A DNA stretch of 33,349 bases, from assembly GCF_002532075.1 (NCBI RefSeq), contig NZ_LYXE01000148.1, forward strand, positions 1 through 33,349, read 5' to 3'. The notes under the pieces were generated by a model. That model ran no database searches, had not been told where the DNA came from, and saw nothing but the letters and a program-made list of their open reading frames with translations. The translations under genes and the position numbers were made by a program. Positions 8,151 through 14,889 of this stretch are shown one piece after another. Every line of letters starts with the position of its first letter. Positions within the stretch are counted from its first letter, which is position 1. This DNA comes from Candidatus Chloroploca asiatica (lineage in GTDB: Bacteria > Chloroflexota > Chloroflexia > Chloroflexales > Chloroflexaceae).

Positions 8151-9155
8151 TCAAAACTCCCCGGCAAAATGGCAGGCGGCCCAGTGACCTTTGCGTTTCT
8201 CTTCAAACGCCGGATCCTGTTCTTTGCAGATATCACGGGCAATCCAGCAACGGGGATGAAAGCGGCATCCCTGCGGCGGATTGATCGGACTCGGCACATC
8301 GCCCTGCAACACAATGCGATCACGGCGCGTCGTTGGATCAGCACTCGGAATCGCCGAGATCAACGCTTTGGTGTACGGATGCAATGGCTCACGGAAGAGA
8401 TCATCACGGCCTGCCAGTTCGACCATTTTACCGAGATACATCACGCCAACGCGATCACTGATGTGCTCAACCACGGCCAGGTTGTGGGCAATAAAGAGAT
8501 AGGTGAGGCCAAATTCACGCTGCAGATTCTTCAGCAGATTCAGCACTTGCGACTGGATCGACACATCAAGCGCACTGACTGGCTCATCACACACCACCAG
8601 CTTGGGTTCCATGATCAACGCCCGCGCAATGCCAATGCGCTGACGCTGCCCACCCGAGAACTCGTGGGGAAACCGGTTCATCTGATTGGCATGCAAGCCT
8701 ACTCGCCCCAACACTTCGCGCACCCGTTCACGGCGTTCAGCCGAAGAGCCGATATTATGGATTACCAGACCCTCGGCGATGCTCTCGCCAACCGTAATGC
8801 GGGGATCGAGCGAAGCGTAGGGATCCTGGAAGACAATCTGCATATCGCGGCGCAACAACTTCATCTGGCGACTGCCCGAGCGGAGCACATCTTTGCCCTC
8901 AAAGAGCACTTCGCCTGACGTTGCTTTTTCAAGGCGCAGCACGGTACGGCCCGTCGTCGTCTTGCCACAACCGCTCTCGCCCACCAGACCAAGCGTCTCG
9001 CCACGTTTGACGGCAAAACTCACCCCATCAACCGCCTTGACCGTCGCTACCGTGCGGCGCAACACACCACCCTTGATCGGAAAATACTTTTTCAGATCAT
9101 TCACTTCAAGCAACACATTGGGATCTGCTGGCGCAGATGTTGGTACTGTTGTCAT
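8151..9155 (-). CDS. Peptide/nickel-type ABC importer ATPase (DppF/OppF)
   Basis: 334 residues, a cytoplasmic ATP-hydrolysing subunit that powers the importer encoded by the four upstream genes. Walker A is GESGCGKT (59-66), the Q-loop is [11 protein letters not shown], the signature FSGGQRQR starts at 166 and Walker B is VVCDEP (187-192). The C-terminal oligopeptide-transporter domain includes [13 protein letters not shown] and a further Cys, the usual cysteine cluster of OppD/OppF. The F-type is supported by the KYFPIKGG start and the VKAVDGVSF pattern. The ATG at 9155 has GAGGAAG upstream. The gene lies 23 bp after the partner ATPase gene. Confidence 0.93.
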
Positions 9156-9178: not shown

Positions 9179-10195
9179 TCATTCAAACAACCAGCAACGC
9201 ACCTTGCGTCCATGTTCGAGCGCAACCATCGGGGGTGCCTCATCGCACTTCTCGAATCGATGGCTGCACCGCGAGGCAAAGCGACACCCAGTAGGCGGAT
9301 TGATCAGGCTCGGCACCGTACCGGGAATAACAGCGAGTTCTTCGCGCACCTCACCGAGCACCGGCATCGAATTGAGCAACCCGACCGTATAGGGATGTTT
9401 CGGTTCAGCAAAGATCGCCCTGACACTAGCATACTCGACCACCTGGCCGGCATACATCACAATCACATTGTCGGCCATTTCGGCGACAACGCCCATATCG
9501 TGGGTAATCAGGATAATCGCCGTATCGATCTTTTCGCGCATCTCGCGCATCAAGTCGAGGATCTGGGCCTGGATCGTCACATCAAGCGCCGTCGTGGGCT
9601 CATCAGCGATCAGCAACTCGGGGGTACAGGCCAGCGCCATTGCAATCATCACACGCTGGCACTGCCCACCCGACAACTCGTGCGGATACTGATTCATCCG
9701 GCTCGCCGGATCAGGCAGACCCACCATCGTCAGCAACTCGATGCACCGACGCTCAGCCTCTTCACCCGTCAAACCCTGGTGAATATTGAGCGTCTCGGTG
9801 ATCTGAGCGCCGACACGAAAGACGGGATTAAGAGCGGTGGTCGGTTGCTGAAAAATCATCGAGATCCGGTCACCCCGAATCTTGCGCATATCCTCTTCGC
9901 TCTTAGCCAGCAGATCCTCGCCATCAAAGATCATGCGGCCCTCGACCACACGACCGGGACGGCTGATCAAACGCAAAATTGACAGGGACGTGACACTCTT
10001 ACCCGAACCACTCTCCCCAACAATACTGAGGGTCTCGCCACGTTTGACCTCAAAGTCAACGCCATCTACAGCCTGCACAACCCCTTCATCGGTAAAAAAA
10101 TGGGTCTTGAGGCCCTCTACGCGCAACAAAATGCGCTTGTCACTACTATCAACTGCTTGTTGAACCCGTGCAGATGTCTCTGGTGCGGTAGCCAC
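9179..10195 (-). CDS. Peptide/nickel-type ABC importer ATPase (DppD/OppD)
   Basis: 338 residues, the second ATPase of the importer. Walker A is GESGSGKS (60-67), the Q-loop IFQQPTTALNP, the signature LSGGQ (174-178) and Walker B LLIADEP (194-200), followed by TTALDVT. The C-terminal domain carries NPPTGCRFASRCSHRFEKC and a final Cys, the cysteine cluster usual for this subfamily. The start is GTG at 10195, only 6 bp after the upstream permease stop. A GAGAGGA ribosome binding site overlaps the permease stop codon, so the two genes are probably translationally coupled. Confidence 0.93.
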   Translation of the reverse strand: MATAPETSARVQQAVDSSDKRILLRVEGLKTHFFTDEGVVQAVDGVDFEVKRGETLSIVGESGSGKSVTSLSILRLISRPGRVVEGRMIFDGEDLLAKSEEDMRKIRGDRISMIFQQPTTALNPVFRVGAQITETLNIHQGLTGEEAERRCIELLTMVGLPDPASRMNQYPHELSGGQCQRVMIAMALACTPELLIADEPTTALDVTIQAQILDLMREMREKIDTAIILITHDMGVVAEMADNVIVMYAGQVVEYASVRAIFAEPKHPYTVGLLNSMPVLGEVREELAVIPGTVPSLINPPTGCRFASRCSHRFEKCDEAPPMVALEHGRKVRCWLFE

Positions 10196-10201
10196 AGACT
10201 C

Positions 10202-11194
10202 TTATCCTCTCTGGCGCGGATCAAGCGCATCACGCAGACCATCACCGATATAGTTAATAGCAATCGAGCAGAAGAGAATGGGCAAACTAGGAATCAACGG
10301 CATCCAGGGATGCTGGAACATATAGCTCTGCGCAAACGAGAGCATATTGCCCCAGGTTGGCGTCGGATCCTGGATCCCGAACCCGAGAAAGCTGAGTGCC
10401 GACTCAGCCACAAGCGTCGCATTGATGCCAAGGGTAAAGTCAACAATCATCGGTGGTAACGCATTCGGAAAGACGTGACGACCAAGGATGCGCACATTCG
10501 AAGCCCCGAGCGCACGTGACGACTCGATATAGACATTCTCACGCACCGAAAGCACCATCCCTCGCATCAAACGGGCAGTTCCTGTCCACCCAAAGAGCGA
10601 GAGCACCAGGATGACGGCAAAAATAATGCGCGCCTCACGTGGACTTACGGCAAAAACCCAGGCTAGAAAGTTCGCAAAGAAATCTGGTATTGGAATACTA
10701 TTAATATTTTGCACCAGAATCGAAGACATAATCAACAAAAGGAGTAAGGTTGGAAACGTTGCGACCACCTCAAGGGTTCGGCTAATGACAATATCCACCC
10801 AACCGCCAAAGTAGCCCGCAATCATCCCAAGCAGAATCCCGATTGTCGAGGCAATCAGGGTCGCAAAAAAGGCCGTCCCGAGCGACACCCGCGATGCATA
10901 GAGCAACCGGGTATAGAAATCGCGCCCCAGGTGATCGGTGCCAAAGAGCCGGAAATTGCCCTGCGAGTCAACGGTAAACGGGGGCACAAAGCGGGTCTGC
11001 AAGCTTGGCGCATCACGAGGAAAGGGAGCAATCACAGGGGCAAGCGCAGAAATGATCACCAGCATCACAAGCAAGACCAGGCTAACGACGGCGATCTTAT
11101 GCTTGCGAAAGCGACGAAGCACAATTTGCCATTGCGTCTCTGATGGCGCTCGTGAGGTCTCGTCACCTGGTACAACTGTGGTTGTTGCAGTCAT
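10202..11194 (-). CDS. Peptide/nickel-type ABC importer permease (DppC/OppC)
   Basis: 330 residues, an inner-membrane permease subunit. A cytoplasmic N-terminus precedes the first membrane helix (about 33-55, VVSLVLLVMLVIISALAPVI). Then come the family motif FGTDHLGRDFYTRLLYASRVSL and several more helices. The ATPase-contact loop is ESSRALGASNVRILGRHVFPN. The family ending ALSFLGFGIQDPTPTWGNML is present. The loop between helices 3 and 4 (NINSIPIPDFFANFLAW) is somewhat long. ATG 11194 has GAAGGA upstream. It pairs with the DppB-type permease, 114 bp upstream. Confidence 0.92.
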   Translation of the reverse strand: MTATTTVVPGDETSRAPSETQWQIVLRRFRKHKIAVVSLVLLVMLVIISALAPVIAPFPRDAPSLQTRFVPPFTVDSQGNFRLFGTDHLGRDFYTRLLYASRVSLGTAFFATLIASTIGILLGMIAGYFGGWVDIVISRTLEVVATFPTLLLLLIMSSILVQNINSIPIPDFFANFLAWVFAVSPREARIIFAVILVLSLFGWTGTARLMRGMVLSVRENVYIESSRALGASNVRILGRHVFPNALPPMIVDFTLGINATLVAESALSFLGFGIQDPTPTWGNMLSFAQSYMFQHPWMPLIPSLPILFCSIAINYIGDGLRDALDPRQRG

Positions 11195-11308: not shown

Positions 11309-12502
11309 TTAACCCAAACGGATCCGGGGATCAACGATGGTATACAAAATATCGGTGATCAGAATGCCGATCAACAGCAACACCACATTGATAAAGAGCA
11401 AGGCCATGACCACATTGTAATCATTGCGCCCAAGCGCATCAATAAAGAGGCGTCCGAGACCAGGCCAGTTAAAGACCGACTCGGTGATCAACGCACCTCC
11501 AAACAGCGCCGCGAGCACACCAGCCAGCAGGGTCACAAACGGGATCAGCGAGTTCCGCAAGGCATGTTTGGTAATCACTACCTGCTCACGGACACCCTTA
11601 GCACGGGCGGTACGCACATAATCCTGCTGCAATACTTCAAGCATACTACCGCGGACAAAGCGGCTCCAGCCGGCAATATTGATAAACGTCAGCACACTCA
11701 CCGGCATCAAAAAGCGCAGGAAACGATCGAGGAACGAACCAGCCTGTACGGTACCAATCCAGGGGATCGTATAGTCACGCACCCCAACGGCATCGCCCGG
11801 AGGCAAAAAGGGCAACCCGGCCCGTTGGGCCAGCACTGAAAAGATCAGAATGGCAAAAATACCAAAGACAAAACTGGGCAACGAGGAACCAATGAAGGCA
11901 ATTGTCGTCATCGTATAGTCAAAGCGTGAATACTGCTTGACTGCCGAATAGATCCCGATGGGTACCCCGATCAGGATCGCGAGCAGAATCGAAGCCCCCA
12001 TCAGCGAGAGGGTATAGGGCAAACGGGTTGCGATCAGGTCACTTACCGGGCGATCACGCAAAATCACTTGACTCACGCCAAAATCCCCAAAGAACACCCC
12101 ACGACTCACGCGGCGCCCCTCGAGTTCGGCTAGGGTCAGGTAATCAGCACAGCCCTCTTCCACTAGTTCAAACGTACCATCAGGATAGACCAGGCGGACT
12201 TGCCCAGGCGTCTGACAGCCAATCGCCCAATCAGCCCCAACCGAACCAAAGAGCGGGCCTGAGGGCCAACCGATCAGCCAGCGCGTAAAGCGAAAGGGCA
12301 GATAGACATCAAGATCAAAGCGCTGTTGCACCCGCTGAATATCAGCCTGATTGATCCGATCCTGCCCCGAATTCTGACGTTCAGCCAGCAACGCATCAAC
12401 AGGGCCACCGGGCACAAGATAGAGCAACCCGTACGACAGCAGAGCCGCAACAATCGTCACCACAAACATCTGAAAGATGCGTCGAACAAGAAATGCTACC
12501 AT
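11309..12502 (-). CDS. Peptide/nickel-type ABC importer permease (DppB/OppB) with a periplasmic insert
   Basis: 397 residues, longer than the usual 305-340. Helix 1 is at the N-terminus (FLVRRIFQMFVVTIVAALLSYGLLY). The core permease follows from the segment LIATRLPYTLSLMGASILLAI onward and includes YVRTARAKGVREQVVITKHALRNSLIPF, the ATPase-contact loop. Between helix 1 and the core lies an extracytoplasmic region with an extra segment around ADWAIGCQTPGQVRLVYPDG and EEGCADYL, containing two Cys that could pair. The start may be ATG 12502 or the in-frame TTG 12508. Neither has a strong ribosome binding site, and I prefer the ATG. A stem-loop upstream separates it from the substrate-binding gene. 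Confidence 0.9.
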   Translation of the reverse strand: MVAFLVRRIFQMFVVTIVAALLSYGLLYLVPGGPVDALLAERQNSGQDRINQADIQRVQQRFDLDVYLPFRFTRWLIGWPSGPLFGSVGADWAIGCQTPGQVRLVYPDGTFELVEEGCADYLTLAELEGRRVSRGVFFGDFGVSQVILRDRPVSDLIATRLPYTLSLMGASILLAILIGVPIGIYSAVKQYSRFDYTMTTIAFIGSSLPSFVFGIFAILIFSVLAQRAGLPFLPPGDAVGVRDYTIPWIGTVQAGSFLDRFLRFLMPVSVLTFINIAGWSRFVRGSMLEVLQQDYVRTARAKGVREQVVITKHALRNSLIPFVTLLAGVLAALFGGALITESVFNWPGLGRLFIDALGRNDYNVVMALLFINVVLLLIGILITDILYTIVDPRIRLG

Positions 12503-12595
12503 CGCCAACCCATTCGCCCTGGTCCCATGTGGTCGTAGACCTGCATCGTCCAGGCTTGATCACAAACTACTTCTGCCTGAGTGCCATTCGTAGGC

Positions 12596-12671: not shown

Positions 12672-14615
12672 TTACCTGATGTTCAGGTTGAAGTCGATGT
12701 GCTCCCAGGTCGAGCTTGCAATGGTAAAGGCCTGGATATCGCCGGCTGCACCAGCCTGCAACACCGTCTCAACCTCAGGTCCGGCACCAAGGGTCTCGGA
12801 ACCAAGCACGTCAACCTCACCCGTCAGCAACTGGGCCACGGCCTGGTTGGTATCGGCGATGAACTTGACAACAACCGTCTTGATCTCTGGCTCACCCAGG
12901 AAGAAGTTCGGGTTCGCACGGAAGGTCATGCTCTGACCCTTCTCCCAGCTCTCCAGGATGAAGGGGCCATTGCTCAACGGCTGCTCAACGATCTCGGGCA
13001 GGCTGCTCCACTCGCTGGCCGGTACATCAGCCAGCAGGCGGCCATCACTGACCTCCTGGTGCGACGGGTAGGCCCCAATCGGTGCCAGGAAGTAGGTCGG
13101 CCACTGCACGCCAGGGAGATAGGTCACGGTGTAGCTGGTATCGCTGCTGAAATCAATCTCAGCAATCGAGTTACAGGTAGCAAACGAGACCGCACCCGAG
13201 TCAGGGTCACAGTTGATGCTATACGCAAGCTCGAAGTCGGCCTGCTTGAGTGGCTCGCCATCTTCCCAGACCTGACCCTCAACGAAGTTGTAGGTCGCAA
13301 CCAGTTGCTTGAGCGTAACTGTGCCGCTCTCGTAGGTGATCGTCTCACCATTGGCATCAACGACGGTCACACCAGGGGCGAGTTCGACGGCTTCGCCATC
13401 AATGTTCCAGATGATGTCGCCAGCCGTTACTTCAATGTCCTCGTTGGTCGCAAGACCAGACTCGATGGTTGAGAGCTCAGTCTGACCCTTAGCCTGATAG
13501 TCGTAGCTATACTCAGTGGCAAAGGGGTAGCTCAGCAAGAACGCAGCCGTACGCTGGACAGCCGCACTCTCGATCAAGCTCCAGAGCGTAGCCGGCTCCT
13601 GTGTAAAGCCAAGCACCACCGTATCGCCATCGGTCAGCGTCCACTCTTGGATGTTGGCGGTGTAGTATTCGGTCGGGTCGGCAATATAACCCTGGATACG
13701 ATTGCTAGCAGCCTCAGCCTCAAGGCGGTTGAAGACTGGCAGGCTCACCATATCATTGGCGAACTCTTCCTGGACAATCGCGTACTGGCGGATGCGCTCG
13801 TCGCGATCAAGCGTATTGTTGGCCGCAACGATGGCCTGGCTGGCGCGCTCGTTACACCAACCCATGTAGTTCTGACCTTCCCAGTTGTTCTCGGGGGTCG
13901 GAATCTGGTTACACGCATAGAGTGTGCGGCCAGCGGGGTCAGTCTGACCAACCCAGGCAAAGGCACCAAGCTCAAAGTCGCGGCGCGACAGGCCGGTGCT
14001 GCTGCCAAACCACCACGAGCCAGGGGCATAGGTCGGGATGACCTGAATGCCACAGGCAGCCATCTGCTGAATAAAGACCGCCGACCAGGTCTGGCGGAAC
14101 TGGGCATTGGTGGTAGTGAAGCTCAGAGCCAGCAAATCACCATCGGCGTTGCTACGCGTCGGGCTTCCCGTCCAGCCAGCCTCATCAAGCAGCGCCTGGC
14201 CCTGCTCGGGATCAAACGGATAGGTGGTCACATCATTGTTGACGGCCCAGTGGCTCTTGGGGATAAAGGTATCCATCAACAAGCCGGCCTGCTGCTCCTC
14301 ATCAAGGAACGGATAGACCGAGGCGATCAACTCAGGGCGATTGGTGCAGTAGGCAATTGCCTGACGCACATTAATGTCACTCAAAATCGGGTGCGGGGTC
14401 GTAAACGCTCCACCCGTCACCGGCGCACTGGGCTCCGGCTCGGCAACCACGGTCTGCTCGACGACAACCGTCTCGCGTACCGGCTCAGCAGTCTGTACTA
14501 CGACAACCGTCTCTCGCACAACCTCGGTCTGCGCTGCGCCACCACAGGCTGCGAGGATGGGAACCAACACTGCCAATAGGGTTACTATGACAGCACGTCT
14601 GAAAGCAATACTCAT
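12672..14615 (-). CDS. ABC importer substrate-binding lipoprotein (SBP family 5), apparently circularly permuted
   Basis: 647 residues from ATG 14615, which has GGAGGG 10 nt upstream. A lipoprotein signal (VIVTLLAVLVPILAAC, lipobox LAAC with Cys24) is followed by a low-complexity linker with repeated RETVVV, then the binding domains. The order is unusual. Residues 75-323 match what is normally the second half of family-5 binding proteins: ILSDINVRQAIAYCTNR (77-93), YPFDPEQGQALLDEAGW (132-148), AFAWVGQTDPAG (218-229) and RDERIRQYAIVQEEF (271-285). Residues 328-647 match the normal first half: DGDTVVLGFTQEPATL (329-344), VWEDGEPLKQADFELAY (449-465), NGPFILESWEKG (549-560), TGEVDVLG (598-605) and STWEHIDFNLNIR at the very end. 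In ordinary members the text after that tail is where this protein begins. It probably binds peptides or another oligomeric solute outside the membrane. First gene of the importer operon. Confidence 0.88.
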   Translation of the reverse strand: MSIAFRRAVIVTLLAVLVPILAACGGAAQTEVVRETVVVVQTAEPVRETVVVEQTVVAEPEPSAPVTGGAFTTPHPILSDINVRQAIAYCTNRPELIASVYPFLDEEQQAGLLMDTFIPKSHWAVNNDVTTYPFDPEQGQALLDEAGWTGSPTRSNADGDLLALSFTTTNAQFRQTWSAVFIQQMAACGIQVIPTYAPGSWWFGSSTGLSRRDFELGAFAWVGQTDPAGRTLYACNQIPTPENNWEGQNYMGWCNERASQAIVAANNTLDRDERIRQYAIVQEEFANDMVSLPVFNRLEAEAASNRIQGYIADPTEYYTANIQEWTLTDGDTVVLGFTQEPATLWSLIESAAVQRTAAFLLSYPFATEYSYDYQAKGQTELSTIESGLATNEDIEVTAGDIIWNIDGEAVELAPGVTVVDANGETITYESGTVTLKQLVATYNFVEGQVWEDGEPLKQADFELAYSINCDPDSGAVSFATCNSIAEIDFSSDTSYTVTYLPGVQWPTYFLAPIGAYPSHQEVSDGRLLADVPASEWSSLPEIVEQPLSNGPFILESWEKGQSMTFRANPNFFLGEPEIKTVVVKFIADTNQAVAQLLTGEVDVLGSETLGAGPEVETVLQAGAAGDIQAFTIASSTWEHIDFNLNIR

Positions 14616-14889
14616 CTTGGATTTTCCCTCCGTTAACGAAACCGCTCTTCGAAACACACGTCGAACGGGGTGCTGCACTACCGCGTATCTGGGGGAGATT
14701 TGGGTTCGCAGCCAAAACACTTGTTACTTTTGACAAGCGACCTCAGGATAACGCTGTTTCAGGAGTACGCGACCAAACCCACACAGTTGCCTGTCTGCAA
14801 GAGAATGCATCATTTTCTGTGGGGAGTATCGTACGTGGAAACAACGGCCTTTGTAGTCTTATGCAGCGAGTTTCAAGTGTTTGGCACTA
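14616..14889 (-). other. Long leader of the importer operon
   Basis: If transcription starts 6-7 nt after the consensus -10 box at 14890-14895, the message has a leader of about 265-270 nt before the ATG at 14615. I do not recognise a riboswitch class, a T-box or a leader peptide here. Open frames across it on either strand are not coding-like. The ribosome binding site GGAGGG lies at its 3' end. Confidence 0.45.

Follow-up and report, generated by a model that had tools for sequence, protein, structure and literature searches.

The locus described here raises the question whether a substrate-binding lipoprotein in which the two halves of the fold stand in swapped order is the product of a natural circular permutation, and whether such a protein could serve a working importer. 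The DNA studied, hereafter the window, is a stretch of 33,349 nucleotides from Candidatus Chloroploca asiatica (assembly GCF_002532075.1, contig NZ_LYXE01000148.1, positions 1 to 33,349), one of the 199 contigs of a draft genome. A sequence-only reading had proposed that a family-5 binding protein encoded at 12672-14615 begins with what is normally its second half, and the coordinates, motifs and order of halves that it gave all proved correct when compared with the ORF list, Pfam and phmmer. The core opens with ILSDINVRQAIAYCTNR and the protein terminates in STWEHIDFNLNIR, and a normal-order relative (L198) reads straight through VWEHIDFNLDIQTLQDIRVRRALAYGFNR, the ordinary order thus being the one that had been claimed. 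We conclude that the gene very probably encodes the lipid-anchored binding protein of an ABC importer of the Dpp/Opp type, and that this protein has undergone a single ancient circular permutation. The features of the locus are collected in Table 1.

Table 1. Features of the permuted binding-protein gene and its operon (positions in the window).
Feature	Position	Strand	Evidence
Permuted family-5 substrate-binding lipoprotein, 647 aa	12672..14615	-	ORF list, Pfam, phmmer, rotation test
Signal peptide and lipobox (...PILAAC), lipid-anchor Cys24	14544..14615	-	Sequence
Low-complexity spacer, Cys24 to folded core	14397..14543	-	Model residues 1-45 with pLDDT <50
Core first half, residues 74-328, C-terminal half of a normal family-5 protein	13632..14396	-	VIA, phmmer
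Junction, old C-terminus fused to old N-terminus	13623..13640	-	Alignment of 74 permuted ORFs, model
Core second half, residues 330-647, N-terminal half of a normal family-5 protein	12675..13628	-	AlphaFold model, VIA, Pfam
DppB-type permease, same operon	11309..12508 (longest ORF)	-	Pfam PF00528 and PF19300
47-aa two-Cys stretch in DppB	12119..12259	-	Stretch comparison; Pfam limits
DppC-type permease	10202..11194	-	Pfam PF00528 and PF12911
Putative DppD-type ATPase	9179..10195	-	Operon order
Putative DppF-type ATPase	8151..9155	-	Operon order

The swapped order was evident from domain searches. The protein matched PF00496 (SBP_bac_5) with 144.8 bits against a curated cut-off of 32.4, and the match was split over two stretches. 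Residues 430-645 corresponded to positions 9-209 of the 368 positions of the Pfam profile, and residues 75-315 matched the C-terminal half of DppA (1dpp 273-496) in phmmer. PF00496 occurs in ten genes of the same genome; nine of them carry it as one stretch each, and the permuted gene is the sole one in which, in gene order, profile positions 194-358 come first and 9-209 second. The search for all SBP_bac_5 segments in normal order, which the earlier reading had named as a way to disprove it, thus returned segments that are not so ordered. Among the NCBIfam models none reached its cut-off, the best being Opp4A (117 of 650 bits) and SapA (72 of 560).

The same conclusion was reached by rotation. 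A profile was built from 34 normal-order relatives, the halves of 74 permuted ORFs were swapped in silico, and native and rotated proteins were scored. The rotated score exceeded the native score in all 74 cases, with the median best single match rising from 220 to 433 bits and the median coverage of the profile from 251 to 565 positions; native permuted proteins match the normal-order profile in pieces only. Since the halves do not follow the usual N-to-C order of family 5, as seen both from the profile positions and from the rotation test, the protein is a permuted variant and not an ordinary SBP_bac_5 member, and the claim of swapped halves is confirmed.

The length of 647 residues is counted from the Met at 14615, and the frame stays open upstream as far as a GTG at 14720. 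A lipobox was detected by regular expression in 71 of the 74 permuted ORFs (it is visible by eye in two of the remaining three, the third being cut by a contig end), and three further loci in which none was seen by eye (L193, L194 and L196) lie outside this count. The distance from the anchor Cys to the core has a median of 47 residues in the permuted homologs. At the junction the linker is 0-3 residues long, as judged by eye, and the junction is conserved across the 74 aligned ORFs.

An AlphaFold model of the mature protein, built with 47 homologs, gave a pLDDT of 84.9 and a pTM of 0.80 (model residues 51-305 correspond to residues 74-328 of the protein). Model residues 301-320, which span the junction, have a mean pLDDT of 96. 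The spacer (model residues 1-45) is disordered with pLDDT below 50, and there is a weak zone inside the first half (model residues 171-230, block means 52-76). With VIA, the first half (model residues 51-305) was aligned to 1dpp_A 272-507 (Z 22.4, 228 aligned, rmsd 3.7), and model residues 51-306 also to 1xoc_A 274-520. The second half folded alone reached a pLDDT of 92.0 and a pTM of 0.86; residues 2-315 of that model were aligned to 1dpp_A 1-271 (Z 19.2, 245 aligned, rmsd 3.1), and the half was likewise aligned to 1xoc_A 21-290. The ranges covered by the two halves are complementary on 1dpp and overlap by some residues on 1xoc. From VIA on the predicted models the whole cluster C fold is therefore present with both its halves, and the structural comparison with binding proteins that had been proposed places them on DppA as 272-507 followed by 1-271. 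By title, most of the VIA matches listed belong to the DppA/OppA/NikA kind of binding protein, of peptide, nickel or oligosaccharide type. Query TM-scores in Foldseek were low (0.23-0.31 among the 50 matches listed), which we attribute to the fact that chain order is kept there and one half is aligned at a time.

In DppA numbering, the cut in the chain falls between residues 271 and 272. According to DSSP of the model, this site lies between the strand that closes the second half and the helix with which the first half begins. When the second half is folded alone its last strand is disordered, and in the model of the whole protein this strand is ordered; the halves therefore seem to complete one another.

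How widely the permuted form occurs was followed in three samples, which overlap. Within the own family, a match at E < 1e-60 was present in 37 of 41 genomes and absent from four; in a draw of 400 Chloroflexota genomes a match at the same threshold was found in 43 (families f1, f3, f13, f29, f45 and f83) and not in the other 357. No match at E < 1e-60 was obtained in the seven f2 genomes and one f4 genome listed, which belong to the same taxonomic order as the window. The third sample consists of 69 named loci, by title mostly Chloroflexales, Anaerolineae and Caldilineales. In 68 of these the match runs across the junction, chromosome CP059258.1 included (in L098 this match is split over two frames); the remaining locus, L101, is too short to show the junction. 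The genome-contig scan behind the named loci used exact short peptides of one protein, so that only close relatives are within its reach. Non-Chloroflexota names are attached to two of these records (L068, Singulisphaera; L099, Gracilibacteria), which are presumed to be mis-binned. Permuted members outside Chloroflexota were also sought by tblastn in 72,556 plasmid records; 334 records matched, of which 40 were listed, and in none did a single place cover 80% of the query. The permuted form is old and conserved across several Chloroflexota families, and the recommended search of this phylum for the same arrangement has thus given a positive answer.

These data bear directly on one rival explanation, i.e. 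that two tandem normal-order genes were collapsed in assembly or binning so that the end of the first was joined to the start of the second. The draft state of the genome would allow for it, and tandem family-5 genes do adjoin the permuted gene in three relatives (L070, L092 and L096). However, the same arrangement recurs over the full length in close relatives (95% and 90% identity) and in the single-contig genomes G007 and G009, and across the junction in the 68 loci mentioned above, the chromosome among them; the junction is conserved and the permuted proteins form a clade of their own. The collapse that the sequence-only reading had asked to be looked for was accordingly not found, and misassembly is rejected on account of the recurrence across many assemblies, its probability being practically nil.

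A gene in decay, with the permutation as a by-product, is a similarly remote prospect and in our judgement extremely unlikely. The reading frame is indeed broken in a few genomes (G006, G286 and L098), and one relative, L197, retains one half only. On the other hand, the frame remains open over about 640-710 residues in the own genome and in most of the relatives for which a full-length match was listed (51-95% identity), and the lipobox (in the 71 of 74 ORFs found by regular expression) and the operon are kept. The broken genes each lie in two overlapping or adjacent frames (G006:C1:2870434-2872333, G286:C70:4550-6497 and L098:7703-9805); one of the genomes, G006, is a single contig. The breaks may be due to sequencing error or to decay.

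Some relatives depart from the common architecture. Two permuted proteins, at L193:7035-9500 (-) and L196:5603-8185 (+), have open frames of 822 and 861 residues with an extra C-terminal stretch of about 150 residues ending in LYLPIINR and LYLPLLHR, respectively. Both are without a lipobox by eye and without a downstream DppB (with 7.0 and 1.6 kb of room), and in L193 SBP_bac_5 is the only domain by Pfam. The ORF of 415 residues at L197:6431-7675 (-) consists of the C-half followed directly by the strand TVWEHIDFNL and a C-terminal stretch similar to that of L193 and L196, most of the N-half being missing in frame. At L195:7412-12477 (+) a permuted protein of 38% identity adjoins an open frame of 958 residues that combines a phosphonate-binding-type domain with a normal-order family-5 domain.

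The origin of the permutation was traced by excising the N-half and the C-half and aligning them separately. FastTree was run on 35 permuted and 33 normal-order rows, and the permuted proteins formed one clade in both halves (support 0.84 and 0.89, values that were taken after re-rooting and are hence approximate). In quick IQ-TREE runs with 17 of the 35 permuted rows and all 33 normal-order rows the SH-aLRT of this clade was 100 for each half, and again 100 for the joined halves under a mixture model. The neighbours in both half trees are the same two normal-order Chloroflexota clades, with the far normal-order rows outside, which argues for one origin from one ancestral protein type. The nearest sister in FastTree differs, being the C65 clade alone for the C-half and both normal-order clades together for the N-half, so that a fusion of close paralogs and a permutation of one gene are not distinguishable on this point.

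A chimera, in which the C-half of one binding-protein gene was joined to the N-half of another, would be consistent with these differing sister groups, and several family-5 paralogs per genome (the ten in the own genome are an example) make mixed recombination possible. We nevertheless regard it as quite improbable, because each half yields a single permuted clade (SH-aLRT 100), with the same pair of normal-order clades close by, and the rotated proteins match the profile of those relatives over almost the whole length; for distant paralogs it is rejected by the half trees. The view that this is a natural circular permutation of a class C binding protein is hence supported by sequence, predicted structure, phylogeny and conservation alike.

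A tandem duplication, an in-frame fusion and the loss of the outer halves probably gave rise to the permutation, in operons of a type able to carry two family-5 genes. A duplication-fusion intermediate (C-N-C or N-C-N in one ORF) was found in none of the 177 ORFs with a half-domain, out of a total of 883 ORFs from 201 loci. In L070, L092 and L096 a normal-order gene stands immediately upstream of the permuted one; these genes were considered as remnants of the origin and rejected, since they lie deep in their own clade and are not the nearest sister of the permuted protein.

The permuted gene usually heads a dppBCDF-type operon. In the window it is followed by genes for two permeases and by two ORFs that we take, from their sequences, to encode the DppD-type and DppF-type ATPases; judged by eye, the DppC partner (10202-11194, minus strand) also seems to exceed the usual length in the central part of its membrane domain. 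In all, 75 permuted ORFs (partial and near-identical ones included) were counted in the window, the 69 named loci and 20 additional stretches, with DppB next downstream in 59, DppB plus DppC in 54, and all of DppBCDF in 46. Eight of the 16 ORFs without DppB are within 467 bases of a contig end, so that DppB lies directly downstream in 59 of 67 permuted loci with room. The other eight have 1.5 to 8 kb of room, and some permuted genes therefore have other roles.

The same operon layout, headed by a normal-order protein, is present in four stretches from families f2 and f4, which belong to the same taxonomic order and whose genomes show no strong permuted match. Compared with the window, their DppD and DppF are 68-77% identical and their DppB and DppC only 37-46%. 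For the two f13 stretches that have a permuted protein, the corresponding figures are 62-66% for DppD and DppF and 48-56% for DppB and DppC. Six stretches (L180, L182, L183, L184, L185 and L186) carry two family-5 genes per operon, located before DppB and after DppF, respectively. In L185 and L186, which are the f13 stretches among them, a permuted gene precedes DppB and a normal-order gene follows DppF; in the f2 and f4 stretches both genes are of normal order.

Trees were then calculated for 25 operons, namely 21 picked from the 46 permuted operons with all four genes and four of five normal-order operons; for DppB+DppC, those DppB columns filled in less than 40% of the normal-order rows were left out. 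In the DppB+DppC tree all permuted operons fell on one side of a branch (SH-aLRT 100) and a Chloroflexales clade was rejected (p-AU 2.9e-6), whereas the DppD+DppF tree contained a Chloroflexales clade (100) and rejected a permuted clade (p-AU 1.2e-5). These p-AU values are optimistic because the groups were chosen after the distances had been seen and LG+G4 was used without a mixture, but the log-likelihood gaps of the two tests (76 and 77) are large. In the operons compared, the binding protein shares ancestry with DppB and DppC and not with the ATPases; from the conflict of the trees, binding protein and permease go together and the ATPases follow the organisms.

The DppB of permuted operons carries an extra two-cysteine stretch. 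This change in the permease alongside the binding protein was absent from the sequence-only reading. The stretch is located around the end of the N-terminal Pfam domain and before the main permease domain, and would lie between TM1 and TM2. It comprises 42-54 residues with exactly two cysteines in all 58 distinct DppB partners of permuted proteins that were examined. In 14 other DppB partners the same stretch has 0-29 residues: 0-29 in seven near normal-order partners (12 in the f2 and f4 operons, and 29 with two cysteines in L089) and 0-6 in seven far ones. Since the DppB partners of permuted proteins form one clade, the 58 of 58 most simply reflect one event and co-inheritance, not repeated coupling.

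What this could mean for transport may be outlined as follows. The two-lobed trap with its opening and closing would be retained, and solute would be captured outside the membrane and passed to DppB and DppC as usual. What visibly differs is that the lipid anchor and spacer now leave from the mid-chain cut and no longer from the old N-terminus, and docking may be matched by the altered periplasmic part of DppB. In E. coli the cleft of DppA is occupied by a scoop motif of DppB that links TM1 with helix 3 (PMC12136057). The two-cysteine stretch follows the scoop region in sequence and is therefore expected on the side facing the binding protein. The system could, as we read the sequences, be a working importer in which the trap is re-tethered and matched by its permease. 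The changed tethering may also affect ligand release, as the sequence-only reading had suggested.

A neutral course of events is a serious alternative, to which we would give a little less than an even chance. The permutation and the DppB insert would then have been fixed by chance once, with no effect on tethering, docking or release; the usual fold is predicted to be kept by both halves, and both changes most simply trace to single events, so that their occurrence together can be plain co-inheritance. The conflict between the DppB+DppC and ATPase trees is harder to accommodate, as a binding protein and permease that go together suggest that the two must match. We tentatively propose, as a possibility that we hold with some reserve, a distinct importer sub-type with the anchor at the cut, in which the two-Cys DppB would dock the re-tethered trap, and DppA, DppB and DppC might be exchanged between lineages as a matched set while the ATPases stay.

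As to the substrate, Arg383 and Asp436 of DppA clamp the ends of the dipeptide (PMC12136057). In a distant and approximate alignment, in which phmmer pairs these residues slightly differently, the Arg383 position is a gap in 36 of 36 permuted rows and is Arg in none of 33 normal-order relatives. The Asp436 position is occupied by Asp in two, Gln in 19, Glu in 13, Ser in one and Asn in one of the permuted rows, and by Asp in four of the 33 normal-order relatives. Most normal-order relatives are also without the clamp, and this difference from DppA is therefore not due to the permutation.

The permuted family with its co-inherited permease is a conserved variant that is new to family 5, as far as the matches listed from an open-access library show. 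Among the literature matches listed there was no earlier report of a natural permutation of a family-5 binding protein, and a single one, TpMglB-2, for transport binding proteins in general. Normal-order relatives in operons of the same layout and from the same taxonomic order, with related ATPases and a different topology and permease, amount to a natural experiment. They make it possible to ask whether transport depends on where an anchored binding protein is tethered, and by which parts of the permease such a protein is recognised. Furthermore, annotation that depends on segment order yields two partial domain matches for such a protein, and other permuted proteins may therefore be overlooked.

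The closest known systems share the parts but not their arrangement. With E. coli DppABCDF the locus has the five-part layout in common; it differs in that its binding protein is permuted and has a lipobox, that Arg383 and Asp436 of E. coli DppA are not conserved, and that its DppB has a further two-cysteine stretch later in sequence. Both halves align with the family-5 (cluster C) proteins DppA, B. subtilis AppA (1xoc) and Thermus 2d5w in sequence and predicted structure, PF00496 is far over its cut-off, and the operon has DppB-, DppC-, DppD- and DppF-type genes, but the halves are swapped and the anchor is at the mid-chain cut. What the protein has in common with TpMglB-2 (Tp0684) of Treponema pallidum is that an ABC binding lipoprotein has been circularly permuted in nature. 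TpMglB-2 is a glucose-binding lipoprotein in which strands near the N-terminus of E. coli MglB lie near the C-terminus (PMC4990184). The same paper proposes the name cluster Bc (Type Ic), and considers most such proteins to be probably tethered and tethering a possible cause. TpMglB-2 is a sugar-binding protein of Type I (cluster B), whereas the Chloroploca protein belongs by sequence to family 5 (cluster C) and is cut mid-chain, and the permuted Chloroflexota family would appear to be its independent counterpart in cluster C.
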